Assembly (NCBI GenBank): GCA_018057705.1
Contig: JAGPDF010000027.1
Location: 1-55,517, forward strand
Direction of reading: 5' to 3'
DNA length: 55,517 bases
Source: Thermoanaerobaculia bacterium
GTDB taxonomy: Bacteria > Acidobacteriota > Thermoanaerobaculia > Multivoradales > JAGPDF01
A program made the translations under genes and the position numbers. Below, piece after piece: positions 31,852-48,203 of this stretch. The notes under the pieces were generated by a model that was given only the letters and a program-made list of their open reading frames with translations, searched no databases and was not told the origin of the DNA. Within the stretch, counting starts at the first letter, position 1. The number at the start of each line of letters is the position of its first letter.

Positions 31852-31854
31852 CGC

Positions 31855-33000
31855 TCAGGAGAGTCCGAGCGCCTTCTTCACCGTCGGGATGACATAGGAG
31901 ATCGGCTTCCTCGTCTCGACGACGACCTGGATGGTGCAGTCGGTGCCGCTGCCGACCTCGAGCGGGGGACCGGCGGACGACGTCCAGCGGAACCCCGAGG
32001 GCGTTTCCGCGGGCAGCGGCTCGATCACCACCTGGAACGGGTTGAGGTCGATGTACTGCCGGGCCAAGGCGTCGTTCGCGACGATGCGTTGAATCTCCTC
32101 CGGCGTGAGAGGCAGAGTCGAGACCGAGATGACCTTGCCGAGCAGAAAGCCGTAGTCCTCGACGCGCACGAACGAAGGGGAGATCCGCACGTCGAGACCG
32201 TTCAGGACCTTCTTGCCGGCGGCGAGCGGCACGAAACCGATCACCCGCATGGGATCCTGGGTGGATTCGAGCGACAGCAGCGCGTCCCCGGGTCGCACGG
32301 ACTGTCCGATGCCGGCACGCACCGCGACCACCCTGCCGGGGAACGGCGAGCGCACGACCGCGTCGTTCGCGAGCCGCGACTCGAGCTCGCGAACCTCGAG
32401 TCGCTTGTCCTCCACCCGGAGGCCGCGATCGCCGGTGCCGATCATGCTCTGCGCGAGGGAGTTCTGGAGGCTCGTGATCTGCTGGTCGATGGCGGCGACC
32501 GACGCCGAGGTCAGGAGTCCGCGATCGACGAGCTTCTGTTTCTGCGCGCGATCGGCTTCGAGGCGGGCGATCTGGCCGCGCAGCCGGCCCTGGATCGAGG
32601 CCGTCTGCGAGCCGGAGGAGCTGGTCTGCTGCTCGAGCCCGGCCAGGAGCTCGCGGGCCGAAATCAACCGGGCTTCGACGTCCGGCATCGAGAGGCGCGC
32701 GACCACCGTGCCGGTTTCGATGACGTCGCCGGTCTTGACCTCCATCGACTGGATCGTGCCGCCGGCGAGGATCTGGACCTCCCGCACCGCCTCGCCGCGC
32801 ACCATGAAGCCCCGCCCGTCGACCTTCACCGGCATCGGAAAGGTCACGCTCCAGACGATCGCCGCGAGGATGATGGCGCCGATCGCCGCGACCGCCACCC
32901 ATCCCATCGGCGACGTGACGCGCATCATCATGTCGAGCTGCTCGGGCGACGACAGCTTCTCGACCGAGGCCTTGCGCAGCAGATTTTCCGGGCCTTGCAT
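31855..33000 (-). CDS. HlyD-family adaptor of the NHLP exporter
   Basis: A 381-residue membrane-fusion protein. A cytoplasmic start (LLRKASVEKLSSPEQLDMMM) leads to one membrane segment (GWVAVAAIGAIILAAIVWSV), then lipoyl-like halves (GGTIQSMEVKTGDVIETG and VVRSPFPGRVVAVRAGIGQ) around a coiled-coil hairpin (GRLRGQIARLEADRAQKQKL). This is the NHLM HlyD layout. It links the inner-membrane ABC proteins to a TolC-type channel. It lies three bases upstream of the peptidase-ABC gene in the same operon. Confidence 0.93.
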   Translation of the reverse strand: MQGPENLLRKASVEKLSSPEQLDMMMRVTSPMGWVAVAAIGAIILAAIVWSVTFPMPVKVDGRGFMVRGEAVREVQILAGGTIQSMEVKTGDVIETGTVVARLSMPDVEARLISARELLAGLEQQTSSSGSQTASIQGRLRGQIARLEADRAQKQKLVDRGLLTSASVAAIDQQITSLQNSLAQSMIGTGDRGLRVEDKRLEVRELESRLANDAVVRSPFPGRVVAVRAGIGQSVRPGDALLSLESTQDPMRVIGFVPLAAGKKVLNGLDVRISPSFVRVEDYGFLLGKVISVSTLPLTPEEIQRIVANDALARQYIDLNPFQVVIEPLPAETPSGFRWTSSAGPPLEVGSGTDCTIQVVVETRKPISYVIPTVKKALGLS

Positions 33001-33031
33001 CGCTCTCTCCTCGCTCCGGTCGTCTCTCTGC

Positions 33032-35044
33032 TCAGCGCAGTGGCGAATCGAGCGGCAGCAGCCGCGCCGCGCGGACGTCGCCCTCGGCCGGCAGGTCGAG
33101 CAGGCGTCCGGCGGAGAAGCGCAAACGGGTCAGGAGCGACAGGACTTCGCGTTCGGATGCCACCAGGTCGAGTCCGGCCCGCGTCAGCTCCTGCTCGGTG
33201 ATCAACGTGTCGAGCACGGTGAGGTCGCCCGCCTGGTAGCGGGTCATGGTCGCTTCCGCGGTCTCCTCGATTCGCAGGCGGGCTTCGCGCCGCGCGGCGA
33301 GCTCCGCCCGGGCGGCGGCCAGAGTCGAGAGCTCCTCGAGGACCTGGAGACGGATCGAGCGCTTGAGCTCGGTCGCGTCGATTTCGCTCGAGGTCGTCGC
33401 CGAGCGCGCCTGGAGGAGCCGCCCCTGCGCCACGTTGTTGCCGATCGGCAGGCGGAAGCGCAGCGCGATGCCGTAGGACGGGCCCGACCAGGGTTCGCCG
33501 AACGCGTCGCCGAAGCCCTCCGGCTCGTAGAAGCGGGTGTCGTAGGTCTCGTGGTAGGCGTTGTACGAGGCGTTCAGGCGCAGATCGACCTGTGGCCGGA
33601 GGTCGAGCTCGGCCGCCGCTGCGAGCGTCGATTCCGCCTCGACGCGCTTGGCCGCCGCCGCGACGTCGGCGCGCTCGGCGAGCGCCAGTTGGACCAACGC
33701 CTCGGCGTCGAGCGCCGCCTCGATCGCCTGGTCGAGGAACTGCGCGAAGTCGGTGCCGGGATCCAGGACGTCGAGCTCCGAGGCGAAGGCGCCGATCTCG
33801 AGCGCGAGCGCGGCCCGGGCCTCGGAGAGCGCCCGCCGCGCCGAGGCCACCGAAGACTCGGTGGCGGCGCGCTGGGCGCGATTGAACTCGATGTCGAGGC
33901 GCGCGATCTGCTCGCCCTCGATCAGCTGCTGCGTCGCGTCGAGCAGCCGGTCCTGCTGCGAGAGAGAGACTTCGAACAGAGCGAGACGGCGCTTGGCGGC
34001 GACCACGTCCCAGAAGGCTTCGAGGGCGACCGCTGCCCGCTCGGCAGCGGCGTGACGGTAGAGCGAGCGGGCGGAAGCCTCCGCCAGTTCCGCCGCGACG
34101 AGGGGCGCGGCGTACGAGGCGCGCCCGCCGCCGCGTCCGAGCGGAATCTCCAGCGAGACGCCGCCCGTCACCCGGAACTGGTTGGCGACGAACGAATCGC
34201 CGAACTCGGGATCGAGCGGCTTATCGGTGAAGTTGTCCTCGGTGCTGGCGAGCGAAAGGCTCGAGATCAACGCGGTCCCGTTCTGGAACGGGATGCGGTA
34301 GTCGACCCCGGTGTCGAGGAGGATCGTCTCGCGATCGCGCGGCAGGTCGCCGATGTTGTCGCGCTGGATGCGGAGCGCCGTCGCCGTCCCGGTCAGAATG
34401 TCCGAAACCAGGCGGATCTGATCGGCTGCCGTGGCGCGCAGGGAGTCGGCGAAGAGCTGGATCCGGCCGTTCAGCCCTTCGAGCCCGACGAACGCCTCGG
34501 CGAGGTCGACCGCGGAGAAGAGTGTCGGGCCGACGGCGAGCGCCGGATCCAGGACACCGAGGAGATTGCCGTTGTCGTCGAGGCAGAGCAGGGTTTGCGC
34601 GCCGTCGACCACGATGTAGGTCGCCGCACCGATGCAGCTCGAAGGGTTCATGAGGCTCACGTCGGTCGGGATGGCCGCGCGCAGACGGCGCGCGGCCTCG
34701 TCGAGCGCCGGGGGAGGGATCTCGAGCTGCAACCGGCGATCGACCTCGGACTTGAGGCGGCTGCCGACGAGCTCCTCCTCGGCGTAGTCGACGCGAAAGT
34801 CGGCGAGCAGGGAGGGATCGAAGATCGATTCCGCCTCGGTCACGATCGCGGAGCGCCGCGCCACGTCCTGCTCGGCCTGCGCCAGGTCCGGATTGTCGGC
34901 GATCGCACGCCGCACCGCCTCTTCCGCCGTGAGGAGCGTCGCCTGGCCTCGCAGCGGTGCGCCGGATCCCAGGGCGAGCAGCCCGAGCAGGGCGAGCAGA
35001 GGGACCGCCATCGCGTTCATTTGGAAACGGTTCGTTCTGCTCAC
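33032..35044 (-). CDS. TolC-family outer-membrane efflux protein (second copy)
   Basis: A 670-residue TolC-like protein. The signal peptide is MAVPLLALLGLLALGSG-like, behind a short basic start (SRTNRFQ). The mature part begins TAEEAVRRAIADNPDLAQAE, the typical TolC first helix, and shows two repeats of long helices plus beta strands; the last helices include RYQAGDLTVLDTLITEQEL. I start at GTG 35044 because its GTGA overlaps the stop of the upstream TolC gene; ATG 35020 is another possibility. About 150 residues near the start (CIGAATYIVVDGAQTLLC region) are an insertion with two cysteines. It is the second of two adjacent TolC-like genes in the operon. Confidence 0.87.
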   Translation of the reverse strand: MSRTNRFQMNAMAVPLLALLGLLALGSGAPLRGQATLLTAEEAVRRAIADNPDLAQAEQDVARRSAIVTEAESIFDPSLLADFRVDYAEEELVGSRLKSEVDRRLQLEIPPPALDEAARRLRAAIPTDVSLMNPSSCIGAATYIVVDGAQTLLCLDDNGNLLGVLDPALAVGPTLFSAVDLAEAFVGLEGLNGRIQLFADSLRATAADQIRLVSDILTGTATALRIQRDNIGDLPRDRETILLDTGVDYRIPFQNGTALISSLSLASTEDNFTDKPLDPEFGDSFVANQFRVTGGVSLEIPLGRGGGRASYAAPLVAAELAEASARSLYRHAAAERAAVALEAFWDVVAAKRRLALFEVSLSQQDRLLDATQQLIEGEQIARLDIEFNRAQRAATESSVASARRALSEARAALALEIGAFASELDVLDPGTDFAQFLDQAIEAALDAEALVQLALAERADVAAAAKRVEAESTLAAAAELDLRPQVDLRLNASYNAYHETYDTRFYEPEGFGDAFGEPWSGPSYGIALRFRLPIGNNVAQGRLLQARSATTSSEIDATELKRSIRLQVLEELSTLAAARAELAARREARLRIEETAEATMTRYQAGDLTVLDTLITEQELTRAGLDLVASEREVLSLLTRLRFSAGRLLDLPAEGDVRAARLLPLDSPLR

Positions 35045-37065
35045 GGCTGGCTTCCAGCGGCGATCGAGCCCGGCAGGGTGACCAGCGCTTCGGGCGCGAA
35101 CCGCCCACCGTCCGCATTCCAGTCGATCAGCGTTCCGGTTTCGAAACGCAGCCGCGCCAGCAGGAGAGCGACCTGTTGTTGACCGGCGATGACCGCCAGA
35201 TCCGAGCCCGTCTTCTGCTGCTCGGTGAGGATGGCGTCGATCAAGGTCGAGGCTCCGAGCCCCAGCTTCTCGAACTCGGCGTCGACCGTCGCCTGGAAGT
35301 GGCCGGCGGCCGCCTCCGCAGCCGCGAGGCCGGCCGAGGCCTCCTCGAGGGAGCGGAGGATCTCGACGACGGCGATGCGGATCCGCCGATCGAGATCGAT
35401 GGCGGAGATCTCCCGCTGTCGCACCAGGGCCTCGTTCTGCGCGTACCGGCCCTCCTGGCCGTTGTTGCCGATGCTCTTGTCGAAGGCGAGCGCGAAGCTG
35501 CCGTTGGGGCCCGTCCAGCGATCGACGGCGTTGCCGAAGCTCTCCTCGCCGATCGCCGCGGTCGAGAGCGACAGCGCCAGGTCGAGGCGGGAGGCGAGAT
35601 CGCGACGCGCCGCTTCGGCCAGGACCTTGCCCGATGCCACCAGCTCGTGTGTCGCCTGACGATCGGCGCGCAGGTCGAGCGCCTGAGTGGAGAGAGCTGT
35701 TGCGTCGAGCGCCCGGATCTGCTCCGGCGTCGGCGTGATCGGGAACGGGCCCTCGGCGAGCGGGGCGTTGGCCACGCCGTCGACGTCGAGCCCCATGGCG
35801 CGGGCCAGCCCGAGGCGGGCGGTGACGAGATCCCGCCGCGCCCCCTCGAGCTGCGCGCGCGCATTCGCCTGCGAGGCGGCGGAGCGCGCGGATTCGACCC
35901 GCGGCAGAGCGTCGCCCTCGATCAGCTGAGCGGTGAGGTTGCCGATCCGGGTCTGCAGCTCGAGCGAGCGCTCGAGCACCGCGACGCGCTGCTGCGCGCT
36001 GTAGAGCTGCCAGTAGGCGAAGGCGGTCGAGAGCGTCGAGGTCGACGAACCGTGGCGCAGGACGAGCTCCGAGGCGGCGAGGTCGATCTGCGCCGCCTTC
36101 TCGAAGGCGCCTGCCGATTCGATGCCGCGACCGCGCAGCAGGGGCAGGTTGACATCGAAGCCGATCTCGGTGCGATAGAGATCGAGGATGTTCTTGCCGC
36201 CGAAATTGACGAAGCGCCGCAGCTGCGTGCCGTACTCGGTGGTGACCGGCAGACCGTTCTCGTCGACGCGGTCGACGAAGTAGCCGTTGCGCCGCCCGGC
36301 GAACTGGTTGTGGTCGTAGCCCGCGGTCATGTACGGAGTGAGGGTGATGCCGGAGCGGAAGTACTTCGAAAGGGAGAGATCGAAGCGGCCGCTGGCGATC
36401 TCCTCCTCCTCCGGCGCCGGTCCGAGATTCGCCACGTCCTCGTTCAACTCGACGCAGCCGTTGGCGAGGTCGGTCACGCCTTCGGTCGCCGCGTCGATCG
36501 CCCGGGTGAGGAGATTCGATCGCGCCTCGGCGAGCAGCCCGCGCTGGGTGGCGTTGTCTTCGGCGGCGATGATGGCGTCGAGGAAGTCGACCTGCTGCTG
36601 GACGTCGTTGGGCAGCGTCGCCGCCGGATCGCCGCCCGCGAAGCGCTGCAGATTCTCGAGCTCGCCGCGCTGGCGGATCTCCTCTGCACAGGTGAAGTCC
36701 CTGTGCGCGGCAAGGTCCGTGCGCTTCTCCTTCTCGCGCTCGAGCGTCGAGTCGCGAACCCGCTGCTGCCGATAGTCGTAGGAGAGATCGATGTTCAGGT
36801 TCCAGTCGAACGCGCCGGTGTTCTCCTGCAGGATGCCGCGCTGGCGCTCGACATCCTGGGCGTCGAGCATCAGGTTCGGGTCGTTCTCGAGCGTCAGCCG
36901 CACCGCTTCGACGAGATTGATCTGGCCCTCGCCGTAGTTGAAGCGCGGCGGCTGGTAGCCATCGGAGCCAGCGGAGCCAGCGGCGAGCGCCAGGGTGGCC
37001 GCCCCCGCGGCGCAGACGAGAGAGGTTCCTACAGCCCGGCCGAGCCGCTTCCCGAAGAAGTTCAT
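35041..37065 (-). CDS. TolC-family outer-membrane efflux protein (first copy)
   Basis: A 674-residue TolC-like protein. It has a signal peptide (VGTSLVCAAGAATLALAAG), then INLVEAVRLTLENDPNLMLD, the family's first motif, and later LREADRQATHELV-like and LGLGASTLIDAILTEQQKTG helices. A segment between about residues 105 and 235 with two cysteines (FTCAEEI and NGCVELN) is inserted in the first half, as in its neighbour. Together with the second copy it may form a mixed trimer channel or serve different partners. GAGGAG precedes the ATG; a perfect hairpin lies just ahead of it. Confidence 0.88.
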   Translation of the reverse strand: MNFFGKRLGRAVGTSLVCAAGAATLALAAGSAGSDGYQPPRFNYGEGQINLVEAVRLTLENDPNLMLDAQDVERQRGILQENTGAFDWNLNIDLSYDYRQQRVRDSTLEREKEKRTDLAAHRDFTCAEEIRQRGELENLQRFAGGDPAATLPNDVQQQVDFLDAIIAAEDNATQRGLLAEARSNLLTRAIDAATEGVTDLANGCVELNEDVANLGPAPEEEEIASGRFDLSLSKYFRSGITLTPYMTAGYDHNQFAGRRNGYFVDRVDENGLPVTTEYGTQLRRFVNFGGKNILDLYRTEIGFDVNLPLLRGRGIESAGAFEKAAQIDLAASELVLRHGSSTSTLSTAFAYWQLYSAQQRVAVLERSLELQTRIGNLTAQLIEGDALPRVESARSAASQANARAQLEGARRDLVTARLGLARAMGLDVDGVANAPLAEGPFPITPTPEQIRALDATALSTQALDLRADRQATHELVASGKVLAEAARRDLASRLDLALSLSTAAIGEESFGNAVDRWTGPNGSFALAFDKSIGNNGQEGRYAQNEALVRQREISAIDLDRRIRIAVVEILRSLEEASAGLAAAEAAAGHFQATVDAEFEKLGLGASTLIDAILTEQQKTGSDLAVIAGQQQVALLLARLRFETGTLIDWNADGGRFAPEALVTLPGSIAAGSQP

Positions 37066-37156: not shown

Positions 37157-38185
37157 TCAACTGAGCCCGCCGGGGGAGACCCGGACGCCCGGCGAGGGGC
37201 TCCCGAGCCGCTTGGTCGAGCCGCGCGTCTCGCCGACGAACTCGGCGATCGGCGCGATCCAGCGCAGGATGAAGCGGACCATGTTCGGATAGCTCACCGG
37301 CGTGACGAAGGTCGCGCGCTCGACACCGCCCTCCGCCAGGCGGCGGAGCGATTCGCGGTAGAGCGGCACGATGCGCCCGCGGCGCGACAGGTCCTTGCGC
37401 AGGAAGCTGCAGGTGAAGCGGACGGTGCCGGGCGCGACGACGTGATTGAGCACCCAGCCGACGACCTCGCCGCGGTAGCGGGCCCCGATCGACGACAGCG
37501 GATCGAATCCGGCGGCTTCGAAGCGCCAGGGTGCCAGGGCGGGGGTGATCCAGGGCGCCGCCTCGTGGCTGCTGCGGATCCGGTCCCGCGAGGCCGCATC
37601 GAGATCGCGCCAGGGGAAGAGCTCGAGGCGCCCCGCGAGCGCGCCCATGCGGCGCTCGCTGAAGAGATCCGAAGCGAGGGCGGCCTCGGGAGGGAAGCGA
37701 ACCGAGAGTGTCCGGGCCCGGGGCGCTTCCCAGCCGCGCTTCTCGAGGACCCGCTCGAGCGCCGGGATCGAAGGCCGGCCGGCGGTGTAAACGGTCGCGA
37801 TCGCCGTCGCGCCGCGCCGGACGAGCTCGCGCTCGAGCGCCGCGAGGAGGGCGGTCGCCACACCGGCACAGCGCGCGGCGGGCCGGACGAAGAGCGAGAG
37901 CAGCTCCGGGCGCCGGTCGGTGTCGGATGGCTGGGATGGCCGGGAGGCCTGCGGGGCATCGTCCGCAGCGAGCGGCAGCTCGGCCAGCGCCAGGCCCGCC
38001 AGGCGGTCGCCGCTCCGCGCGACCACGGCGACCGGCTGCACCAGCCGGACGTCGCCCTGCTCGGGATGGCGGCTGACCGGCGCCAGCCCGAGGAGCGGGC
38101 GGTAGATCGGAAAGGTCATCTCGTCGAGGCCGGGCGGAAGCTCCCGTCCGGCCTCGAGCGTCACGAATTCGAGGTCCCTGCTCAT
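37157..38185 (-). CDS. GNAT-family acetyltransferase in lanthipeptide operon
   Basis: A 342-residue protein with two GNAT-like halves. The first has LLSLFVRPAARCAGVATALL with the acetyl-CoA loop R-x-x-G-x-A, followed by ELVRRGATAIATVYTAG. The second half (EVVGWVLNHVV, then RGRIVPLYRESLRRLAEGG and TFVTPVSYPNMVRFI) looks like a further GNAT fold with a weaker loop. GNAT enzymes move an acyl group from CoA to an amine. Here the likely target is the peptide or an immunity substrate; related clusters often contain such a gene. Its start overlaps the LanM stop by four bases, so the two are coupled. Confidence 0.8.
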   Translation of the reverse strand: MSRDLEFVTLEAGRELPPGLDEMTFPIYRPLLGLAPVSRHPEQGDVRLVQPVAVVARSGDRLAGLALAELPLAADDAPQASRPSQPSDTDRRPELLSLFVRPAARCAGVATALLAALERELVRRGATAIATVYTAGRPSIPALERVLEKRGWEAPRARTLSVRFPPEAALASDLFSERRMGALAGRLELFPWRDLDAASRDRIRSSHEAAPWITPALAPWRFEAAGFDPLSSIGARYRGEVVGWVLNHVVAPGTVRFTCSFLRKDLSRRGRIVPLYRESLRRLAEGGVERATFVTPVSYPNMVRFILRWIAPIAEFVGETRGSTKRLGSPSPGVRVSPGGLS

Positions 38186-41100
38186 CGGGCGTTCCCTTTC
38201 TCCTGTGCGGCGCGCTGCTGCGCTTCCGACGGCAGCTCGAGGGCCAGCGGATCGAGTACGGCCGGGTCGCCGCTCGCGGCGGCGAAGAGACCCAGCCAGG
38301 CCACTCCCGCGACGCCGCGGAAGAGACCCGCTTCGACCTCGGGTCGCGCCCGGGACGAGCCGGGTAGGCTGAGCGGCCTGGCGAGCAGCGCTTCGCGTCC
38401 CGAGCGGCTCGCGGCGCGGGCGTCCTCGCGGCCGAGCCGGACTCCGACCCCTTCGAGGATCGCGAGCCTTCCGGCGGCGCCGCAGCAGAGGTGGTCGAAG
38501 TCGCCCATCCCGGCGCGCCGCGTCGCCGAGATGGCGCGATCGACGTCGCCGTCGAAGCGCTCGTTGCGCAGCTTCGGCGCGAGGAGCGCGCGCCCGAGCG
38601 CGATCCCCGCACCGCCGTGACAGTAGGCGGTCATCGCCACCCGGCGCTCTTCGCCCTCGCCGACCCCCGGACGAACCAGCGGCCAGTCGCCGAGCCGCGC
38701 GTCGAATCGACCGCGCTCGAAGGCGAGCGCGCCGGCGACCGCCTCGGCGAAGCGTGCCTCACCGGTGGCCTCCCAGAGCGCGGAGAGCGCGCGCGCGATC
38801 CCGGTGGAGCCGTGCGCGAAGCCGGTGAGGGCCGGCTCTCCGGCCTTCGCGCGCCAGACGATTCCACCGCCCGGCGAAGGTGCCCCGGCCGCGAGCAGGT
38901 GGTCACCGAGCTCGGCGGCGCGCTCTCGCCAGCCCGCCTCTCCCGTCGCTTCGGCGAACGCGAGCAGCGCGAGGAGGGCGCCCGCGGTGCCGCCGTGGAG
39001 GTCGTGCACCGCCGGGGAGGTCGCCCCGGGTCGCCCGATCCGCTCGGCAAAGCGGCGTGCCCGGTCGAGCCACGCAGCCGACTCCTCGCTCTCCCCGCTC
39101 TCAGCACGCCGCAGGGAGGAGAGCGCCACCAGGCCCCAGACGACGGATCCGGCCCCCTCCAGGCCGCCGATCGGGAGCTCGGCAAGGTGGGAGTCGTCCG
39201 CAAAGCGATCCAGCGCGGCTGCGAGCTCCTCACCGACGGCGACGTAACGGTCGCCGCCATCGAGCCGATCGGCCAGCGCCAGGACGAGCGCCCGGCCGAG
39301 CGCGCCGTCGTAGAGCGCCAGGTCGCGCAGGCGGCGGTCGAACGAGGCGGGTCTCTCCGCCGCGCGCGCGGGCCCGAAAGCCGCCCGATCGCGCTCGAAG
39401 GCCGCCAATCGGTCGGCGAGCGCGAGCGCGCGGCCCGGAACGTCCGGGCCCGGCGCCGGCGCGAGCGAGATCCGCGGGCCGGCCGGCGGCGACAGGGCCG
39501 CCGCGAGCGCATCGCCTCGACGGACGATCTCCTCCGGGGAGAGGGCGGCAAGGCGGCTGGCGATCGCGTCGCGCGTCGTACGAAGGATCAGCCCCGCCGC
39601 GCGCCCGCCTGGCACTTCGACGACGAGTCGATCGGCGCCGACTTCGAAGCGCGGCACGTCGAGCGCTTCGAGCATCGCCCGCTCGGCGACGACCAGCGGC
39701 CAGGCCTGGGGGATGCGCTCCGCGGTCGCGAACGGGCGCGCCAGCGCTTCGAGCAGAATCCCGGGCGACGTCCCTTCGCGCTGCCAGCGCGGGGTCTTCA
39801 GGAGGTCGAGAACCGAGGCGTACTCCTGGCTCGGCCGAAAGAGGAGACGGGTCGAAACGCCGGCGAGCTCGGCCAGCGGCCCGTCTTCGGCCAGGAGCTC
39901 GTCCCGGCAGACCAGCAGCCGTTCCCAGGTTCGCCGGTGCCCGACAGCGAGCGCCGCAGCGTGGTCCTCGGGTGCGAGCTGGCGCCCGGCCCCGGATGAA
40001 CCCCCGGAGAGGGTCGGCGCATTCGGCAGCGGGGAGGTGAAGATCTCGCCAGCGACCGGCGCGATGTCGTCACCGCCCGGATCGCGCCAACCGAGCGCCT
40101 GCGCGGTCACCGCGCGCGGTTCGACCGGGTGCAGGCCTGCCCAGTTTGCGATCCGGCCGCCGGCGCCGCCCTTGCCGCCACCGGCGCCACCGGCGCGCAG
40201 CAGACCGCCGGCGAAGCGTTGTCGGGCGTCGACCCCGGGGCGATCGGGCTGCGCCATCATCTCCGCGTCGACGACCACCGGTCCGCCGCGCCCGGCGACC
40301 AGATTCTCTGCGTGCAGGTCTTCGGCGCCGAGCAGCTCGGCCAGGGCGACGAGCGCTCCGGCGCGACGGAACCAGCCCTCGGCCGCCGCTTCGTCGGCCA
40401 GCTCCTCGGCCTCGATCCACTCCATCCAGCCATGGGTTGCGAAGTCGAGGGCGGGTGCCGCCGGCGGCAACTCTTCGAAACCCCTCGCCGCGAGCCGCGA
40501 GAGGAGGCGCTCCCAGGCGACCTCGATCGCCAGCGAGCGCGGTTTGACGACCAGGTCGGTTCGATCGGCGAAGCGGACGCGGAAGATCCCGCGGCCGCCG
40601 TGGTGCCGGTCCGACCGCGGCTGCGTCACCGCGACGACCGGCCCCGGATCGCGCCCCGCGGCAAAGCGGTCCGCGAGGGCGTTGCGGTCGCGCACGATGC
40701 GCTGCGCGAGCTCGACGAGCGCAGCGATCCAGGTGTCGACGAGCCGGGCGATCTGGCGCAGCGCGACCGGGAACTCGACCGCGAGCTCGAGCAGGCCCGA
40801 GGCGAGCTCCGAATCGACATAGCGGCGGTACGCTCCGGGAGCTTCGTCGCCCTCCGAGAGAGCGCGGAATCGCAGGTAACGCCCGTGCGCGGCGCGCGCA
40901 CCGGCGGCCGCGATCTCCGTGGCGAGCCCTTCGGCGAGCGTGGCGAGATCGCGCCGCGGAACCGTGGCGGCGTCGATCTCTGCCGACACCTCGGCGAGCG
41001 CCGCCTCGACGAGCGGGGTCCACAGCTCGGCGAAGGGAACCGCGGCGAGCTCGAGCCCGGTAGCCGGGCTGTGCCTTCGGCGCGCTTCGGGGCGGCAGTC

Positions 41101-41439
41101 TTCGCCGAGCGAGAAACGTCGCGCTGCGACGGCGAGCCAGTCGGGCAGGGTCTCCCCGGTGAAGCGAGTGACGCTCCGGGCGGGGCCCAGCGCCCGCGTC
41201 GCCAGCGCGAGGTCGAGCCCGTCCCACGAGAGCCGGCGCTCGAGCGCCGCGAGATCGCCACCCGAGAAGGCACGCGCCCAACCGGAGAGAAGATCGGCCT
41301 CGGGCTCGAGCCGGGGAGCCGTCTCGGTGTGCGCTCGGTCGAGACGCTCGGCCAGCGTCAGGGCGCGCTCGGCGATCTGCGCGAGACGAGCGGCGGTGGA
41401 GTCGAAACGGGCCGGCGGGAGGGGGGTCGATGCCGGCAA
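38182..41439 (-). CDS. lanM: Type 2 lanthipeptide synthetase LanM (CCG type)
   Basis: A 1,085-residue bifunctional enzyme. The N-terminal dehydratase part (DUF4135) shows VRFADRTDLVVKPRSLAIEV, HGWMEWIEAEE, LLGAEDLHAENLV (about 376) and PVVVDAEMM; it phosphorylates and eliminates Ser/Thr side chains. The C-terminal LanC-like cyclase has TAYCHGGAGIALGR (about 938) and DHLCCGAAGR (about 983). The second motif is CCG instead of the usual CHG, so the zinc would be held by three cysteines, as in ProcM-like enzymes with broad substrate use. The start is TTG 41439 without a clear ribosome-binding site, so it is uncertain. It lies 113 bases after the precursor gene, past a hairpin. Confidence 0.93.
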   Translation of the reverse strand: MPASTPLPPARFDSTAARLAQIAERALTLAERLDRAHTETAPRLEPEADLLSGWARAFSGGDLAALERRLSWDGLDLALATRALGPARSVTRFTGETLPDWLAVAARRFSLGEDCRPEARRRHSPATGLELAAVPFAELWTPLVEAALAEVSAEIDAATVPRRDLATLAEGLATEIAAAGARAAHGRYLRFRALSEGDEAPGAYRRYVDSELASGLLELAVEFPVALRQIARLVDTWIAALVELAQRIVRDRNALADRFAAGRDPGPVVAVTQPRSDRHHGGRGIFRVRFADRTDLVVKPRSLAIEVAWERLLSRLAARGFEELPPAAPALDFATHGWMEWIEAEELADEAAAEGWFRRAGALVALAELLGAEDLHAENLVAGRGGPVVVDAEMMAQPDRPGVDARQRFAGGLLRAGGAGGGKGGAGGRIANWAGLHPVEPRAVTAQALGWRDPGGDDIAPVAGEIFTSPLPNAPTLSGGSSGAGRQLAPEDHAAALAVGHRRTWERLLVCRDELLAEDGPLAELAGVSTRLLFRPSQEYASVLDLLKTPRWQREGTSPGILLEALARPFATAERIPQAWPLVVAERAMLEALDVPRFEVGADRLVVEVPGGRAAGLILRTTRDAIASRLAALSPEEIVRRGDALAAALSPPAGPRISLAPAPGPDVPGRALALADRLAAFERDRAAFGPARAAERPASFDRRLRDLALYDGALGRALVLALADRLDGGDRYVAVGEELAAALDRFADDSHLAELPIGGLEGAGSVVWGLVALSSLRRAESGESEESAAWLDRARRFAERIGRPGATSPAVHDLHGGTAGALLALLAFAEATGEAGWRERAAELGDHLLAAGAPSPGGGIVWRAKAGEPALTGFAHGSTGIARALSALWEATGEARFAEAVAGALAFERGRFDARLGDWPLVRPGVGEGEERRVAMTAYCHGGAGIALGRALLAPKLRNERFDGDVDRAISATRRAGMGDFDHLCCGAAGRLAILEGVGVRLGREDARAASRSGREALLARPLSLPGSSRARPEVEAGLFRGVAGVAWLGLFAAASGDPAVLDPLALELPSEAQQRAAQEKGNAR

Positions 41440-41508
41440 GGGGATGTCGGGTGGAGAGTGGAGCGGAGAGTCGTCGGGAGGTCGTGCTCGAAGTCGAAAG
41501 AGGCGCCG

Positions 41509-41537
41509 GGCACCCCGTCCGAACCGAACGGGGTGCC
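41509..41537 (-). terminator. Hairpin between precursor and LanM genes
   Basis: GGCACCCCGT and ACGGGGTGCC (10 base pairs) around a nine-base loop, about 16 bases after the precursor stop codon. There is no long T run, so it is more likely a partial terminator or an mRNA-end stabiliser that lets precursor mRNA exceed the synthetase mRNA. Confidence 0.6.
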
Positions 41538-41552
41538 GGGTCGCCGAAACGA

Positions 41553-41885
41553 CTAGAACAGGCTGGCGTTGATCTCGACGACGGTGTTCATCGCGCCGTC
41601 GCTGTCGCCGCAGTTGGCGTCGCCCTTGACGGTCGAACCGCCGGCGACCTTCTCGAGATCCTCGTCGGCGAGCTCGGCGCCGGCCGCGACCGCGTGCGGA
41701 ACGATGACGTAGATCGTGTTGGCGTTCTCTTCGACGGCCTTGATCGTGACGTTGTCGGGCACCGTCATGTTGAACTGCTTCTCGATCACCGACTTCGGGT
41801 TCTTGAGCAGCGCCGAGCGGTAGTCCGAGTTCGTCGCGGCGAACTTCTCGAGCAGGTCCTGCATCTCACCACGAGTCATCTTCAT
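41553..41885 (-). CDS. Lanthipeptide precursor with NHLP-type leader
   Basis: A 110-residue peptide. Residues 1 to 83 are a leader of the nitrile-hydratase-like (NHLP) class: MQDLLEKFAATNSDYRSALL, NPKSVIEKQFNMTVPDNVTI and ANTIYVIVPHA, ending in ELADEDLEKVAGG with a double-glycine site. The core is 27 residues, starting STVKGDANCGDSDG and ending INASLF. It has one Cys (core position 9), Ser/Thr at positions 1, 2, 12, 18 and 25, and is acidic. LanM could form one lanthionine ring, with the C39 exporter removing the leader. ATG 41885 has GGGGAG upstream. A sigma-54 promoter lies about 100 bases upstream. Longer frames to 41951 are unlikely. Confidence 0.93.
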   Translation of the reverse strand: MKMTRGEMQDLLEKFAATNSDYRSALLKNPKSVIEKQFNMTVPDNVTIKAVEENANTIYVIVPHAVAAGAELADEDLEKVAGGSTVKGDANCGDSDGAMNTVVEINASLF

Positions 41886-41999
41886 TTTGCTTCTCCCCTG
41901 TGTTGCGTGCATTCCTGTCCCGACCGGGCTCCGTTCCCGGATGGCTGCCACGCCGACGACCGGCGTAGCTCGCTCTCCTCGGTCTTGTCCAGCCTATCT

Positions 42000-42015
42000 A
42001 GCAGGCCCCGTGCCA
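42000..42015 (-). promoter_or_regulatory. Sigma-54 (-24/-12) promoter of precursor gene
   Basis: Reading the minus strand, TGGCACGGGGCCTGCT has the -24 element TGGCAC and the -12 element CTGCT (consensus TTGCW). The invariant GG and GC are exactly ten bases apart. Transcription should start near 41988, giving a leader of about 100 bases before the precursor ATG. A sigma-54 activator gene is 1.7 kb upstream in the same cluster. Confidence 0.8.
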
Positions 42016-42066
42016 TCTCGTGACGCCGGGGTCAAGTTCATGAAACAAAAGGCGATGGCCCCTGGA

Positions 42067-42131
42067 GGCCGGAATCCTGGAAGGGCTGGATTCCGGCCGG
42101 GGCAAGATTGAGTCGCGCCCCGGCGCGACTC
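42067..42131 (-). terminator. Two perfect hairpins after HAD/kinase gene (or activator sites)
   Basis: GAGTCGCGCC/GGCGCGACTC (42110 to 42131, two-base loop) and GGCCGGAATCC/GGATTCCGGCC (42067 to 42098, ten-base loop) are perfect inverted repeats 30 to 95 bases after the HAD/kinase stop, with a T-rich stretch near 42045 to 42055 in the minus-strand sense. They fit terminators. They also lie 50 to 130 bases upstream of the sigma-54 promoter, where activator binding sites are expected. Confidence 0.65.
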
Positions 42132-42161: not shown

Positions 42162-43703
42162 TCAGAAGCAGAGATCGCAAGCGGCATCGGGTTCGAGCGC
42201 GATCCGTTCCTTGAGATCGGCGATATCGAGCGGCACGAACGCCCGGCGATAGGACTCGGTGCCGACCACGAGCGGCGGATCCATGGCCAGACGCGCGCGC
42301 AACAGCTCCTCGAGCCGCGCGACTCCGGCGCGCGCCCGCTGGTGGACGTCGCGCCAGCCTTCGCGAAAGGCGACGATGGCGGCGGGCGAGGCGGTGCGCG
42401 GGTCGATGAAGGCGCGACGGGTGCGCTGGATCGCGCCGCGCGACACCACCCGGCGCTCGCCGCGCAGGGCGAGCTCGGCGTCGGAGAATCGCGCCAGCCA
42501 CTTCGGATCGAATCGACCCGGGAGGCCGGAGAGGTCGAGGGCGCGATCGAAGAGCGTGTACTCGTAGTCCACCATGGTGAGCCGTTCGGTGCCTCCCTGG
42601 CGGGTCAGGAAGGCGTTCCTGGGCCGCAGGTCGGCATTGGCGAGCAGCAGCGCCGAGGCGCCATGGCGCCCGATCTCGTAGGCGAGCTCGGCACCGGGCA
42701 CCTCCGCCGCGAGCTTCTCGCCGGTCACCGCGCGCGAGAGCAGCAGGGTCTCGGCGCCGGGTTGCACTTCGACGCGATTGGTCTCGATTCCGAGCTCGGC
42801 GTGCAGCGGCCGTGCGATCGCTTCGATCCAGGCCGCCTCGGGGTGGCGAAAGCGCTTGAGATAGAGCTCTTCGCTGAAACCCTCGTCCCACATCACTTCC
42901 GCTTTCGCGACCAGGTTGTAGCGGCCCTGGAGCGTGTCCGGGAGCAGGCGGAGCGCGATCACGCTGCCCACGAGACCGCCCAGCCGGACGCGCCGGCCCG
43001 CCGCCGCGAGCGGCTTCACTTCGCCGCGCTCGAGGCCTTCGGCCCAGGCCAGATCCTCGAACCTCGGGATCGTTCCGGGGCCGGTTCCGCCGGTCCGCAG
43101 CGCGGAGAGCCCGAGGGCACGGGGCGCCTGGATATCGTTGGCGACCGAGTCGCCGATCATCATCGCCTCTTGCGCGCCGACGCCGAGGGCGCTCAACGCC
43201 GCGCGATAGCTCGCCTCCACCGGCTTCTTCACCCCGAGGTCACAGGAGAAGAGGGCCTGGTCGAACGACTCGGCGAGCGCGAAACGGTCGAACGGCGCGC
43301 GGTACGGGCTCGCCGAGTTCGTCAGCAGGGCGAGACCGAACCCTCGCCGGCGGAGGAACCCCAGAATCGACCGCGCCGAGGGCTCCACCCGCGCCAGAGC
43401 GATCTCGCGGTCGAGGAGCGCGAGGGCGCGCGAGCGCGCCTCACCCCGGTCGAGGTCCGGCCGAGGCGCAAAGCGCTCGAAGATCGCATCGACGAAAGCT
43501 TCGCGCGAGGCGTAGGCGCGAACCACCAGCACGTCGCGCAGGAACTCGATCCACTCCCTGCGCGGGGCGGTGATCAGGCGCGCGATCTCGCGCTGGAACG
43601 GCCGTTCGTCGAGGTGAATCAGGGTGCCGTAGAGATCGAACACCAGCGCCCGGACAGCACCCGAGGGCGTCGCACTCGAGGCGGCACTCGAGGCGGAACT
43701 CAA
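42162..43703 (-). CDS. HAD-superfamily hydrolase fused to a kinase-like domain
   Basis: A 513-residue fusion. Residues about 17 to 225 are a HAD domain: ALVFDLYGTLIHLD (nucleophile Asp23), LALLTNSAS (Ser/Thr), GVKKPVEASYRAAL (Lys) and MIGDSVANDIQAPRALGL (acidic GDSxxND). The second Asp of the usual DxD is Tyr (DLYGT), as in 2-haloacid dehalogenases. The rest, about 280 residues, has ANADLRPRNAFL and LTMVDYEYTLFDRALDL, resembling the catalytic and metal-binding loops of aminoglycoside-phosphotransferase-like kinases. The start is TTG 43703, whose TTGA overlaps the sigma-54 activator stop. Possible roles: phosphorylating or dephosphorylating the peptide, or self-protection. Substrate unknown. 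Confidence 0.75.
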   Translation of the reverse strand: MSSASSAASSATPSGAVRALVFDLYGTLIHLDERPFQREIARLITAPRREWIEFLRDVLVVRAYASREAFVDAIFERFAPRPDLDRGEARSRALALLDREIALARVEPSARSILGFLRRRGFGLALLTNSASPYRAPFDRFALAESFDQALFSCDLGVKKPVEASYRAALSALGVGAQEAMMIGDSVANDIQAPRALGLSALRTGGTGPGTIPRFEDLAWAEGLERGEVKPLAAAGRRVRLGGLVGSVIALRLLPDTLQGRYNLVAKAEVMWDEGFSEELYLKRFRHPEAAWIEAIARPLHAELGIETNRVEVQPGAETLLLSRAVTGEKLAAEVPGAELAYEIGRHGASALLLANADLRPRNAFLTRQGGTERLTMVDYEYTLFDRALDLSGLPGRFDPKWLARFSDAELALRGERRVVSRGAIQRTRRAFIDPRTASPAAIVAFREGWRDVHQRARAGVARLEELLRARLAMDPPLVVGTESYRRAFVPLDIADLKERIALEPDAACDLCF

Positions 43704-44839
43704 GGTTTCGGCTCCCCGGTCGGCCGGGGTTGCAGGCGATGGTGGTGCAGGAAACCCATGAAGCGCTTGTAGTCGGTGGCGGGGATCGCCCACAGCTCGA
43801 GGAGCCTGCGGTAGCTGCCACCGGAGTCGTTCAGGCCCATGGTCAGCAGCTGGCGAATGTCGCTGCGCGACAGGTCGCGGTCGAGAAACGGCGCGTGGAC
43901 GAGCGCCCAGAAGTCGGCGTTGCCGCGCGACAGGCGCAGGTGGATCGCCGCCACGTGATCCTCGCGCGCACTCATCTGATGCTCGAGGCGATCGACGAAG
44001 TCGAGCGGCTCGATCCGGCTCGCTTCCGCGAGCGCGTAGCCGGTGGCCACGACGCTGATGAGCTCGCGAACGTTGCCCGGCCAGCGATAGCCCTCCATCA
44101 GGCGGAGCGATTCGTCGGAGAACTGACGGGCCGTGCCGTAGCGGCAGGCCAGCCGATCGAGCGCCCACTCGATCAGGAGCAGCCAGTCGTCGCCGCGCTC
44201 GCGCAGGGCGGGCGGCTCGATCATGAAGTAGCGCAGGCGGAAGAGCAGATCGTTGCGAAACCGCTCCGAGCTCACCATCTCGTTGAGGGAGCGGTTGGTG
44301 GCGGACACGATGCGGACGCTCGTCTTGCGCGCGACTTCGGAGCCCAGAGGCCGGAACTCGCCGGTGCCGATGGCGCGCAGCAGCATCACCTGCGCGTTCA
44401 TCGCGAGATCGCCGATCTCGTCGAGGAACACCACGCCGCCATCGGCCGTTTCGAAGCAGCCGCGGTGGTCGCTGACGGCGCCAGTGAAGCTTCCCTTGCG
44501 GTGCCCGAAGAGCTCCGAGACGGTGAGGTTGCCCTCCTGGAACTGCGGGCAGTTCACCGAGACGAAGGGATGGGAAGAGCGATTGCCGAGCAGATGGATC
44601 GCCTGCGCCAGCGACTCCTTGCCGACGCCGCTCTCGCCGTAGACCAGGACCGGATCGTCGTAGCGCGCCACCTTCGCGACTTTCTTGAGCGTCTCTTCGA
44701 GGCGCGGCGACCGGCCGACGATCTCGATCGCGCGCTCCGGGCCCGACCGCCTGACCGACAACTCGCGGATCTCCAAGGCGGCCGGCGAGAAGAGGCGCTC
44801 GCTGCGGCGGCTGGGATCGATCCTGGCGGAACGGCTCAT
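43700..44839 (-). CDS. Sigma-54-dependent transcriptional activator
   Basis: A 379-residue AAA+ activator without receiver domain. It has LVYGESGVGKESLAQAIH (Walker A), GHRKGSFTGAVSDHRG (the sigma-54-contacting loop, GSFTGA instead of GAFTGA), VVFLDEIGDLAMN (Walker B), RIVSATNRSLNE and RWPGNVRELISVV. The last 100 residues lack a standard Fis-type helix-turn-helix but include SRSDIRQLLTMGLNDSGGSY and DYKRFMGFLHHH, which could bind DNA. ATG 44839 is preferred over GTG 44860 because of GGAG at the right distance. It probably drives the sigma-54 promoter in front of the lanthipeptide precursor. Confidence 0.9.
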   Translation of the reverse strand: MSRSARIDPSRRSERLFSPAALEIRELSVRRSGPERAIEIVGRSPRLEETLKKVAKVARYDDPVLVYGESGVGKESLAQAIHLLGNRSSHPFVSVNCPQFQEGNLTVSELFGHRKGSFTGAVSDHRGCFETADGGVVFLDEIGDLAMNAQVMLLRAIGTGEFRPLGSEVARKTSVRIVSATNRSLNEMVSSERFRNDLLFRLRYFMIEPPALRERGDDWLLLIEWALDRLACRYGTARQFSDESLRLMEGYRWPGNVRELISVVATGYALAEASRIEPLDFVDRLEHQMSAREDHVAAIHLRLSRGNADFWALVHAPFLDRDLSRSDIRQLLTMGLNDSGGSYRRLLELWAIPATDYKRFMGFLHHHRLQPRPTGEPKP

Positions 44840-44962: not shown

Positions 44963-45829
44963 ATGGTCAAATCTCCGAGCAAGCCCGACGGTTCCGGCGG
45001 CGGACGCAGCGCACATCTGCGCGACTATGCCGCCGGCGCGATCATCGTCCAGGAAGGCGCCGCCGGTTCCGAGATGTTCATCATCGATGACGGCGAGGTC
45101 GAGATCGTGCGGTTTCTCGGCGACAGCGAGCGGATCGTGACGACGCTCGGCCCCGGCGACTTCTTCGGCGAGATGTCGGTGCTCGAGAGTCGGCCGAGAA
45201 GCGCCACGGCGCGGGCCAGGGTCGCGTGCCGGCTGCTGCCGATCGACGCCTCGACTCTCGATGCCCTCCTGCGCGAGCACCCCGAGGTCGCCGTGCGCAT
45301 GATGCGCAAGCTCTCGGCGCGCCTGCGCAAGTACGAAGAGGAGGAAGAGCGCGCCGCGCGGGTGGGGATGGAGCGCCTGCAGCCGCCGCCGCAGGTGCCG
45401 GCACCGGCGGCCGATGGGCGGCCGCGCGGCGCGGCCGAGACGCCGTACGCGGGGATTCGCGCTCCCGGTCCGGCCCCGGCGGCGGCGCCCGTGCCTGCCG
45501 CGGGCGCGCGGCTCGAACACGCCTCGGGTTGGTCGATCGCGATCGTGCCCGGCGCCACGCTGGTGATCGGCCGACCCGACCCGGTGACCGGCGCGGTGCC
45601 GGAGATCGACCTCGGCGCTCTCGACACCGAACGCACGCTCTCGCGCCGGCACGCTCGACTCATCGGGCGCGACGGCGGCTACTTCCTGCGCGAGGAGATC
45701 GGTACTTCGAACGGCACCTGGGTCGGAGGGGTGCGGCTCGCTTCCGGCGTCGAGCACCCGCTCGCCGACCGGGATCGCCTGCGGTTCGGCAGGCTCGATT
45801 TTCTCTTCCGGCTCGGCGGACCGGCCTGA
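44963..45829 (+). CDS. Cyclic-nucleotide-binding plus FHA domain protein
   Basis: A 288-residue protein. Residues about 18 to 130 are a CRP-like effector-binding domain: YAAGAIIVQEGAAGSEMFII, DDGEVEIVRF, LGPGDFFGEMSVLESRPRSA (the phosphate-binding cassette). After a Pro/Ala-rich linker, residues about 185 to 288 are an FHA domain: VIGRPDPVTGAVPEIDL, TLSRRHARLIG, TSNGTWVGGVRL. There is no DNA-binding domain, so it is a signal adaptor, perhaps sensing a nucleotide and docking on phosphothreonine. It is divergent from the sigma-54 activator and only one base ahead of the STAS gene. Confidence 0.88.
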   Translation: MVKSPSKPDGSGGGRSAHLRDYAAGAIIVQEGAAGSEMFIIDDGEVEIVRFLGDSERIVTTLGPGDFFGEMSVLESRPRSATARARVACRLLPIDASTLDALLREHPEVAVRMMRKLSARLRKYEEEEERAARVGMERLQPPPQVPAPAADGRPRGAAETPYAGIRAPGPAPAAAPVPAAGARLEHASGWSIAIVPGATLVIGRPDPVTGAVPEIDLGALDTERTLSRRHARLIGRDGGYFLREEIGTSNGTWVGGVRLASGVEHPLADRDRLRFGRLDFLFRLGGPA

Positions 45830-45830
45830 G

Positions 45831-46334
45831 ATGGCGTTTGCCGTTCAGACGAGCGAGGAGGGCGGTGTCGTCGTGCTCGCGCTGTCGGGCCAGCTCGATT
45901 CGCGGACCGCGCCGGCGCTCGAACGCGAGACTGCAAAGGCGCTCGGCAAGGAGTGCCACGCCCTGCTGTTCGACCTCACCGCGCTCGACTTCGTCGCCAG
46001 CGCGGGCCTGCGGGTCGTGATCATGGTCGGCAAGCGGCTGGCCGCGGACGGCGGCGCGATCGCGCTCTGCGGTCTCAATGCGAGTGTGCGCGAGGTCTTC
46101 GACATCGCCGGTTTCTCGGGTCTCTTTCCGATTCTTCCCGATCGCGCCCGGGCGGTCGCGGCACTGGCCGGACGCGCGCGGCTCGGTGGCATCGGCCGCA
46201 TGGCGGATCGCCTCCTGCACCGCCGCGGTGAGCCGGCAGGTCCGCCGCTGCTGGCCCAGCGATCCGCGGCCGATCCGGAGCTCGTCGCGCTGGCCGCCGA
46301 GATCCTCCGTCGCGGCGCCGCACCCCCGAAGTGA
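45831..46334 (+). CDS. STAS-domain anti-sigma-factor antagonist
   Basis: A 167-residue protein. Residues 1 to about 110 are a STAS domain: VVVLALSGQLDSRTAPALER, LLFDLTALDFVASAGLRVVI (the phosphorylatable Ser in ASAGL) and GGAIALCGLN, VREVFDIAGF. A less conserved 55-residue tail follows. In partner switching, an RsbW-like kinase phosphorylates this Ser and a SpoIIE-type phosphatase removes the phosphate; candidates for both (24642 and 46392) are in this window. It starts one base after the cNMP-FHA stop, so it is probably cotranscribed. Confidence 0.92.
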   Translation: MAFAVQTSEEGGVVVLALSGQLDSRTAPALERETAKALGKECHALLFDLTALDFVASAGLRVVIMVGKRLAADGGAIALCGLNASVREVFDIAGFSGLFPILPDRARAVAALAGRARLGGIGRMADRLLHRRGEPAGPPLLAQRSAADPELVALAAEILRRGAAPPK

Positions 46335-46391: not shown

Positions 46392-48050
46392 TCAGGCGCG
46401 CGTCAGGCAGAGAATGGTCAGATCGTCGTCGAAGCCGTGATCGCCGACGAAGGCGCGCGCCGCGACCAGCAGCGCGTTCATCGCCTGCCCCGGATCGTCG
46501 CTCGAGAGACGGCGCATCGTTTCTATGATGCGCGCGTTGCCGAACCGCTGCAGGCCGTGGTTGGCCGCTTCGGTGAGTCCGTCGGTGGCGAACAGCATGA
46601 GGTCGCCGGGGGACATCGTCCAGGAGGCTGCCGGAGCGAGCAGCGGCCGGCTGACTCCCAGCGCGCTCGCGGACGGGAGCTTGAGCTCGCCGACCCGGCC
46701 GTCGCGGTGGCGCACGATCGGCAGCAGGTGCCCGGCGTTGGCGATCTCCAGGCAACCCGTCTCGGGATCGAGCACCGCGAAGCTCGCGGTGACGAACATG
46801 CCCTCGTCGTTCTCGGCGAACACCAGCTGGTTGAGCTCTTCGAGCACGGACGAGGGATGCTCGTCGCGTGCCGCGGCCGCGCGGAGCACGCTGGTCAGGC
46901 GCGCCATCAGCAGCGCCCCCGAGACCCCCTTGCCCGAGACGTCGCCGATGGCGAGCCCGATCCGGCCGCTCGCGAGCGGGAAGAAGTCGTAGAGGTCGCC
47001 GCCGACCTCGGCCGCGGGCGAATACTCGACCGCCAGGCCGTAGCCCGGCACTTCGGGTGGCGTCTGCGGCAGAAAACTGCGTTGCAGACGCCGCGCGAGC
47101 GCGAGATCGTGCTCGAAGATGTCGCGCGCGACGAGCTTCTCGTGCAGTCGCGAGTGCTCCATCGCGAGCGCGATCGGGCCGGCGACGCCCGACAGGAGGT
47201 CGAGGTCGTCGGCGGTGAATCCTCGCCGCTCCTCGGTGTTGTCGACCTGCAGGACACCGACCAGCCGATCCTCGACGAGCAAGGGAAGACAGGCGACCGC
47301 GCGCAGGTTGAGGTGGCGGACGGAGATCGCCACTTCGAACCCTGCTTCGGCGCCGACGTCGACCGAAACCAGGGGCTCCCGGCGGCGGATGACCGCGTCG
47401 ATGAGCGTTCGGCTGGCGGGAATCTCCTCGACCGCGCCGCTGCGGGTCCGGGCGCCGATCGAGTGGAGCTCGCCGCTCTCGGGGTCGCGCCGCAGAATGA
47501 AGGCCCGCCCCGCCTGCGGCAGCACCGCCATCGCCTTCTCCAGCAGGGCGTCGAAGAGCTCGCGCTCGTTCAGGGTCTGAGTGAGAACGACTCCCGCCTG
47601 TCGGAAGAAGTCGAGCTTGCGGCGCAGGCGCTCGATCTCGTCGGCCGGCGGGCCGATCTTGTGCAGCTCCGCGAGGGGGATGACCACGGGCAGCGGTCCG
47701 GATCCGCGCACCGCTTCCCGGATCGACATGGTGTGCGAACGCGTGCCGTCGAGTTTCGGCGAGTCGCCGTCACGGAACTCGAAAACGGCCGTGCCGATGC
47801 GCACTTCGTCACCACTCACGAGGGGAGCCGGCTTCGCGAGTGCCTCGCCGTTCAGGAAGGTTCCGTTGCCGCTGCCCAGATCGGCGAGAAAACAACGTTC
47901 GTCGGAGACCGAGATCTGTGCGTGTCGCCTCGACACCGAGGCTTCGGGCAGCACCACGTCGCACTGCTGACCGCGGCCGAGAATCACCGAGCGGGTGAAG
48001 GTGAAGCGCTGGCCCTTGCGCGGCGCGGATTGATGGATGAGGATCGGCAT
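46392..48050 (-). CDS. SpoIIE-type phosphatase with FHA and GAF domains
   Basis: A 552-residue protein. Residues 1 to about 95 are an FHA domain (VILGRGQQCDVVLPEASVSR, with RRHAQISV and GNGTFLNGE). About 145 to 300 is a GAF domain (LFDALLEKAMAVLPQAGRAF, ACLPLLVEDRLVGVLQVDN). The rest is a PP2C/SpoIIE phosphatase: LARRLQRSFLPQTPPEVPGY, AAEVGGDLYDFFPL, IGDVSGKGVSGALLMARL, FATDGLTEAAN and GFDDDLTILCL, with the metal-binding Asp residues. It should dephosphorylate the STAS protein encoded next to it. The longer frame to 48668 is a shadow; ATG 48050 begins the FHA domain. Confidence 0.92.
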   Translation of the reverse strand: MPILIHQSAPRKGQRFTFTRSVILGRGQQCDVVLPEASVSRRHAQISVSDERCFLADLGSGNGTFLNGEALAKPAPLVSGDEVRIGTAVFEFRDGDSPKLDGTRSHTMSIREAVRGSGPLPVVIPLAELHKIGPPADEIERLRRKLDFFRQAGVVLTQTLNERELFDALLEKAMAVLPQAGRAFILRRDPESGELHSIGARTRSGAVEEIPASRTLIDAVIRRREPLVSVDVGAEAGFEVAISVRHLNLRAVACLPLLVEDRLVGVLQVDNTEERRGFTADDLDLLSGVAGPIALAMEHSRLHEKLVARDIFEHDLALARRLQRSFLPQTPPEVPGYGLAVEYSPAAEVGGDLYDFFPLASGRIGLAIGDVSGKGVSGALLMARLTSVLRAAAARDEHPSSVLEELNQLVFAENDEGMFVTASFAVLDPETGCLEIANAGHLLPIVRHRDGRVGELKLPSASALGVSRPLLAPAASWTMSPGDLMLFATDGLTEAANHGLQRFGNARIIETMRRLSSDDPGQAMNALLVAARAFVGDHGFDDDLTILCLTRA

Positions 48051-48203
48051 CGCGACCGCCCGATCATAGCGAGAGGCGGGACCTCTTGCCTTTCGCCGCG
48101 GGGCGAAACGCGATAGCTTACCCGCCGAGCGACGACCGGACCAGCCCGTGGCGCAGAGCCGCAGGTGCCGCCTCACCGCTCGGCCGAGATTCCGGAGGCC
48201 CCG

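Follow-up and report, generated by a model that had tools for sequence, protein, structure and literature searches.

Organization of the lanthipeptide cluster

The window, by which we mean the whole 55,517-nt stretch of DNA that was analysed, is part of a 5.08-Mb genome and lies in a region of about 70% GC. Its minus strand carries, in order, the gene for a σ54 activator, a HAD-type hydrolase gene, an intergenic region with inverted repeats and a -24/-12 element, an NHLP-leader precursor gene, a hairpin, and the genes for LanM, a GNAT protein, TolC-like and HlyD-like proteins and a C39-peptidase ABC exporter (Table 1). The precursor, LanM and the exporter score above the cut-offs of their curated models (TIGR03793, 63.4 versus 50.9 bits; TIGR03897, 430 versus 304; TIGR03796, 1090 versus 853), and the locus is a class II, NHLP-leader, GNAT-bearing lanthipeptide cluster. 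The precursor consists of a leader that extends up to ...EKVAGG and the core STVKGDANCGDSDGAMNTVVEINASLF, which has one lysine (STVKGDANC...). The GNAT protein is likely a lanthipeptide N-acyltransferase; that it would acylate the lysine side chain is inferred by analogy, without chemistry data.

Table 1. Positions of the features discussed, in the window unless another locus is named
Feature	Position	Strand	Basis or remark
NHLM C39-peptidase ABC exporter	29629-31851	-	export genes, 29629-37065
HlyD-like	31855-33000	-	export genes
TolC-like	35041-37065	-	export genes
GNAT acyltransferase	37157-38185	-	domain match; likeness to NpuN-type clusters (PMC13060382)
LanM class II lanthipeptide synthetase	38182-41439	-	TIGR03897 above cut-off; Pfam DUF4135 and LANC_like
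Stable hairpin in precursor-lanM gap	41494-41536 (approximate limits)	-	RNA folding
NHLP-leader lanthipeptide precursor	41553-41885	-	TIGR03793 above cut-off
σ54 promoter, -24/-12 element TGGCACGGGGCCTGCT	42000-42015	-	GG-N10-GC; match to consensus; equivalents at 23/23 precursors
Second perfect inverted repeat, GGCCGGAATCC-N10-GGATTCCGGCC	42067-42098	-	geometry different from the 6-4-6 site
Degenerate second site, TCTTGC-CCCG-GCCGGA (8/12)	42092-42107	-	inferred from 21-bp spacing
Main putative activator site, TCGCGC-CGGG-GCGCGA	42113-42128	-	core of perfect inverted repeat 42110-42131; matched in geometry and position by G004 and G007
HAD-type hydrolase with long C-terminal region	42162-43724	-	between activator and precursor
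Dedicated σ54 activator (bEBP)	43700-44839	-	AAA+ with GSFTGA; Pfam Sigma54_activat PF00158, 2.6e-58
cNMP-binding/FHA protein	44963-45826	+	divergent from activator
STAS protein	45831-46331	+	
FHA-GAF-SpoIIE phosphatase	46392-48053	-	
Same-family bEBPs with σ54 promoters, palindromes and small ORFs	L098, 1136-2700; L101, 8300-9800 and 11200-11900		

The HAD-type hydrolase is found in many relatives of the cluster and is absent from several. Its C-terminal region of about 300 residues contains a kinase-like NADLRPRNAFL...VDYE stretch and ends in CDLCF. The run of export genes is closed by an ABC transporter with an N-terminal FHA domain (26259-29654). A LanM search of an annotated genome collection returned a single relative, and a close relative of the cluster lies on a contig of a Thermoanaerobaculia bacterium (Acidobacteriota).

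A probable σ54 promoter precedes the precursor gene

The -24/-12 element, on the minus strand at 42015-42000, matches 11 of the 12 specified positions of TGGCACG-N4-TTGCW. The sequence-only reading of this DNA had placed it about 100 bases before the ATG; that distance fits the expected transcription start, at about 41988-41990 with a leader of about 103 nt (there are no start-site data), but the 5' end of the element itself is 130 nt upstream of the ATG at 41885. A search of the 5.08-Mb genome for TGGCACGNNNNYTGCW gave three matches, versus seven for a control pattern, and the window site is one of the three; by our reading one of the others lies just 5' of a porin-like gene and one within a coding region. 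On a weighted score, whose weights are our own approximation of the published consensus, a threshold of at least 12.6 is met by a single site on both strands of the whole window, TGGCACGGGGCCTGCT, and in shuffles of the region upstream of the window precursor the corresponding p value was 0.001. The same scan of the window revealed no strong σ54 promoters belonging to other cluster genes. No σ70-like promoter was found in the region with an E. coli-type consensus, which may not fit this phylum. The genome encodes RpoN with an intact RpoN box (ARRTVAKYRD).

The promoter is conserved with the activator

Relatives of the precursor were present in 17 of 99 genomes, a pattern search added two more, and their neighbourhoods were compared; an activator gene upstream of the precursor, in the same gene order, recurs among them. 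Only promoter-proximal precursors were counted, excluding the second or third of a row without a spacer of its own, and one genome (G011) was left out since its first precursor is at a contig end and the promoter region is missing from the data. All 22 such precursors have a -24/-12 element scoring at least 12.0, located 67-195 nt ahead of the start codon. When the same 250 bp were shuffled, the observed score was reached in 0.05-1.3% of cases (each p <=0.0125), and the Fisher combined value of 3e-38 serves only as a guide because the loci are related. A 23rd promoter, TGGCACGCGGGTTGCT, was found in G483, a genome outside the class, so that the 23 precursors tested represent 19 genomes, one of them outside the class. 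As a control, nine NHLP precursors of other Acidobacteriota with no activator in the locus gave best scores of 9.3-11.7, and none (0/9) has such a promoter. Across both strands of 698 kb of cluster sequence, 18 of the 20 sites scoring at least 12.6 are at precursors. A chance origin of the -24/-12 match was rejected on the basis of this conservation together with the genome and window counts.

Two loci (L041 and L050) are two-precursor clusters in which each precursor is preceded by its own palindrome and its own σ54 promoter.

A conserved palindrome lies upstream of the promoter

Upstream activator sites of σ54 promoters are expected about 80-150 bp away. In the window, 113 bp separate the main palindrome from the first base of the -24 element, and its equivalents in relatives lie 68-157 bp upstream. 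The general form of the site is a 16-bp palindrome of two 6-bp half-sites separated by a 4-bp gap (6-4-6). Outside the window's clade, TGGAGC-N4-GCTCCA with at most one mismatch accompanies 18/18 promoters of the class, with 0.018 expected from shuffles; at the same positions the half-site is TCGCGC or TCGTGC in the window, G004 and G007, and G001, a relative of the same genus, has a less perfect version. At many promoters the sites come in tandem with a spacing of 20-21 bp or 32 bp, equal to two or three turns of the helix, and 21-bp pairs are present in G001, G004, G006 and G007. The degenerate sequence exactly 21 bp nearer the promoter in the window is probably a weaker second activator site, an inference for which there are no binding data.

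The perfect palindrome paired with the promoter occurs in seven places in 148 genomes and in none of the reversed control, and all seven are upstream of precursors of this cluster type. A genome-wide regulon defined by TGGAGC-N4-GCTCCA was not supported, in that the motif alone was not enriched over the reversed control in the 148 genomes; it is therefore informative only when paired with the promoter. Helical phasing was likewise set aside as a formal test: the offsets do cluster (Rayleigh R of 0.53 for a period of 10.5 bp, the best period being 11.2), and because the loci are related we rely on the tandem spacing instead.

The sequence-only reading had taken two perfect inverted repeats for the region of the activator sites. 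Both are indeed perfect, that at 42131-42110 having 10-bp arms and a 2-nt gap and that at 42098-42067 having 11-bp arms and a 10-nt gap. Activator sites in this region are supported by comparison with relatives, but of the two repeats only the former is kept there as a 6-4-6 site and behaves as expected of one. The latter does not qualify as a repeated or conserved element: the genome has no other copy, and no counterpart was found before the precursor gene of G001, the nearest relative.

Three observations on the sites count against the explanation that we favour. In G001 the best site matches 11/12 positions and is displaced by 21 bp towards the promoter, a clean 6-4-6 TGGAGC site is missing from G483 although the promoter is there, and the site of the window's clade is a GC-rich palindrome that could also fold as an RNA hairpin just past the upstream gene. 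Whatever the promoter, the inverted repeats might be terminators of the HAD gene rather than activator sites; the first begins about 30 nt past the HAD stop codon and the repeat region folds stably as RNA. We consider this unlikely, although it is the best of the competing explanations. No U-tract follows the repeats, and the sequence TGGAGC-N4-GCTCCA is itself kept in most relatives, which a terminator would not need. Moreover, the palindrome stands before second precursors in G003 and G087 with no HAD gene ahead, and its tandem copies are spaced by two or three turns of the helix.

A sensor-less activator whose predicted recognition helix co-varies with the palindrome

The product of the activator gene contains a Walker A motif (GESGVGKE), GSFTGA and a Walker B motif (DEIGD), and its closest solved fold is that of NtrC1 (1ny5). 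Pfam recognised no N-terminal sensor domain, and the C-terminal DNA-binding domain matched no Pfam family or HTH and no PDB sequence. AlphaFold2 predicts a five-helix C-terminal domain that ends in a helix-turn-helix-like pair (pLDDT 90); searches of the predicted domain with Foldseek and VIA-align returned weak, unrelated matches only and no clear HTH, which does not exclude one.

Fourteen other aligned activators are 50-87% identical to that of the window. In clusters with TGGAGC sites the last helix reads YQ(K/R)(F/L)MDFLRHH, and in the window genome (G000), G001 and G004 it reads YKRFMGFL(H/R)HH, such that the change of half-site is accompanied by Q-to-K and D-to-G substitutions in the predicted recognition helix. 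In the AlphaFold2 model the two residues, K358 and G362, are one turn apart on this helix (354-366). It was set beforehand that G007, which has a TCGTGC site, should have K and G, and that G005, which has TGGAGC, should have Q and D; both were then found. The activator and the precursor of G007 are on different contigs, and with an estimated contamination of 7% the cluster is possibly not of that genus. In a tree of 19 activators G006 (TGGAGC, Q/D), which among the TGGAGC-bearing relatives is the nearest, groups with four TCG members (support 100/99), which makes the switch of the recognition helix recent; a single evolutionary event is not excluded.

The earlier inference that the cluster encodes its own GSFTGA-type activator is borne out by the AAA+ motifs and the Pfam match, and the σ54 promoter that it proposed for the precursor is supported by the -24/-12 element and its distribution. 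That this activator is the cognate one gains support from the promoter, which tracks the activator (23/23 with it, 0/9 without), and from the co-variation of palindrome and recognition helix. It remains conceivable that the promoter is real and is opened by another activator, the adjacent bEBP acting elsewhere, as candidate activators are numerous in genomes of the group (a first look with the DNA-binding profile gave 53 in the window genome) and the adjacent protein has no sensor domain. We give this slightly less credence than the terminator. The activator gene adjoins the precursor in clusters with enough flank, the palindrome changes with the recognition helix of the adjacent protein, the site-promoter pair is almost confined to these precursors, and NHLP precursors without this activator are also without the promoter. 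Least tenable of all is a fortuitous -24/-12 match, with transcription of the precursor from some unrecognised housekeeping promoter, which the E. coli-type σ70 consensus could have missed in this phylum, given that the element is conserved with matched spacing at 23 precursors and absent at nine controls.

Discussion

A model for regulation of the precursor

We propose that the precursor is under the control of a σ54 promoter that is opened by the adjacent activator through the palindrome at 42128-42113. We place the probability of this reading at about 0.88; the promoter, the sites, their conservation and co-variation, and the presence of rpoN are evident in the DNA itself, and there are no start-site, binding or mutant data. 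Dimers of the PspF-like activator would bind TCGCGC-N4-GCGCGA, and probably the weaker site at 42107-42092, assemble into a hexamer at the palindrome(s) and loop to the polymerase to open the promoter; both binding and activation are inferred. The precursor gene would then be transcribed from the element at 42015-42000, probably together with the operon behind it, although read-through is an inference and dependence on rpoN or on the activator has no expression data. The hairpin region in the precursor-lanM gap has a folding energy of -48.9 kcal/mol (z -5.7), and a stable hairpin follows the precursor in 13/13 folded clusters, without conservation of sequence. It is likely an attenuator or partial terminator, and would yield more precursor than enzyme transcript.

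The sequence-only reading had supposed that σ54 control ties production to a specific signal. Since the activator itself is without a sensor domain, such a signal must come via a partner protein, and it is unidentified. The best candidates for the inferred partner would be the divergent cNMP-FHA protein and the products of the neighbouring STAS and FHA-GAF-SpoIIE genes; roughly half of the relatives likewise have FHA-domain matches beyond the activator.

A possible wider family of activators

The profile of the DNA-binding domain has matches in 70 of 396 Acidobacteriota genomes. In two of them (G203 and G362), three bEBPs of the same family are followed by a σ54 promoter, tandem 6-4-6 palindromes at 21-bp spacing, and small ORFs with hydrophobic N-termini; the palindrome half-sites are TCTACC, ATAACC and TTAGAT. 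Most other family members examined have no such σ54 promoter next door. These observations suggest, for a subset of members, a family of local activator-peptide switches. We lean, by a narrow margin, towards a broader proposal: that this is an undescribed family of sensor-less σ54 activators with an unrecognised DNA-binding domain, serving across Acidobacteriota as local one-to-one switches for neighbouring exported-peptide genes. The last helix of each would read a 6-4-6 palindrome particular to that activator, in tandem at 21-bp spacing, with the equivalents of K358 and G362 helping to set the half-site. Several Acidobacteriota (L094, L095, L103, L107, L108 and L111) also have the same domain within open frames of about 1650-1800 codons, which suggests that it is fused there to large N-terminal regions.

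Biosynthetic genes are the usual route to finding lanthipeptide clusters, and to our knowledge it is mostly unknown how clusters in uncultured phyla are switched on. A conserved, dedicated σ54 switch could explain silence in heterologous hosts, and the activator alone, in an rpoN+ host, might be a simple handle for turning such clusters on. The upstream palindrome with the -24/-12 element could serve as a DNA signature for finding them. Additionally, the matched changes in recognition helix and half-site offer a direct way to test for a DNA-recognition code in an unrecognised domain.

Comparison with known systems

In the open-access literature we found no report of σ54 control of a lanthipeptide or NHLP cluster; most subscription papers were outside the scope of the search, and novelty is unproven. 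The NHLP leader family, TIGR03793, was described without mention of a promoter or sigma factor (PMC2887384); the window precursor fits this curated model and the exporter fits TIGR03796. The selidamide and nostolysamide clusters combine an NHLP or Nif11 leader with LanM and GNAT, and their description makes no mention of sigma factors (PMC13060382). The window cluster shares with them the NHLP leader, LanM, GNAT and a peptidase-type ABC exporter, and differs in having its own σ54 activator and a conserved promoter.

The layout of the activator is that of PspF-type bEBPs, which have no N-terminal regulatory domain and in which the AAA+ domain leads straight into the DNA-binding domain. This layout implies control by a partner protein. 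Unlike PspF-type proteins, the window activator has a DNA-binding domain that Pfam does not recognise as the usual FIS type, and its target and neighbours differ. In Myxococcus xanthus, the bEBP Nla28 and σ54 promoters drive polyketide and nonribosomal peptide natural product genes (PMC7910581). The two systems have in common σ54 promoters, a bEBP with upstream repeat sites, and natural product genes as targets. In the Nla28 system the promoters are mostly intragenic, the bEBP is a response regulator and the half-site is CT(C/G)CG(C/G)AG (PMC7910581), whereas in the cluster described here the promoter is intergenic, the target encodes a ribosomal peptide precursor, and the activator is a dedicated one that is encoded within the cluster and has no receiver domain.
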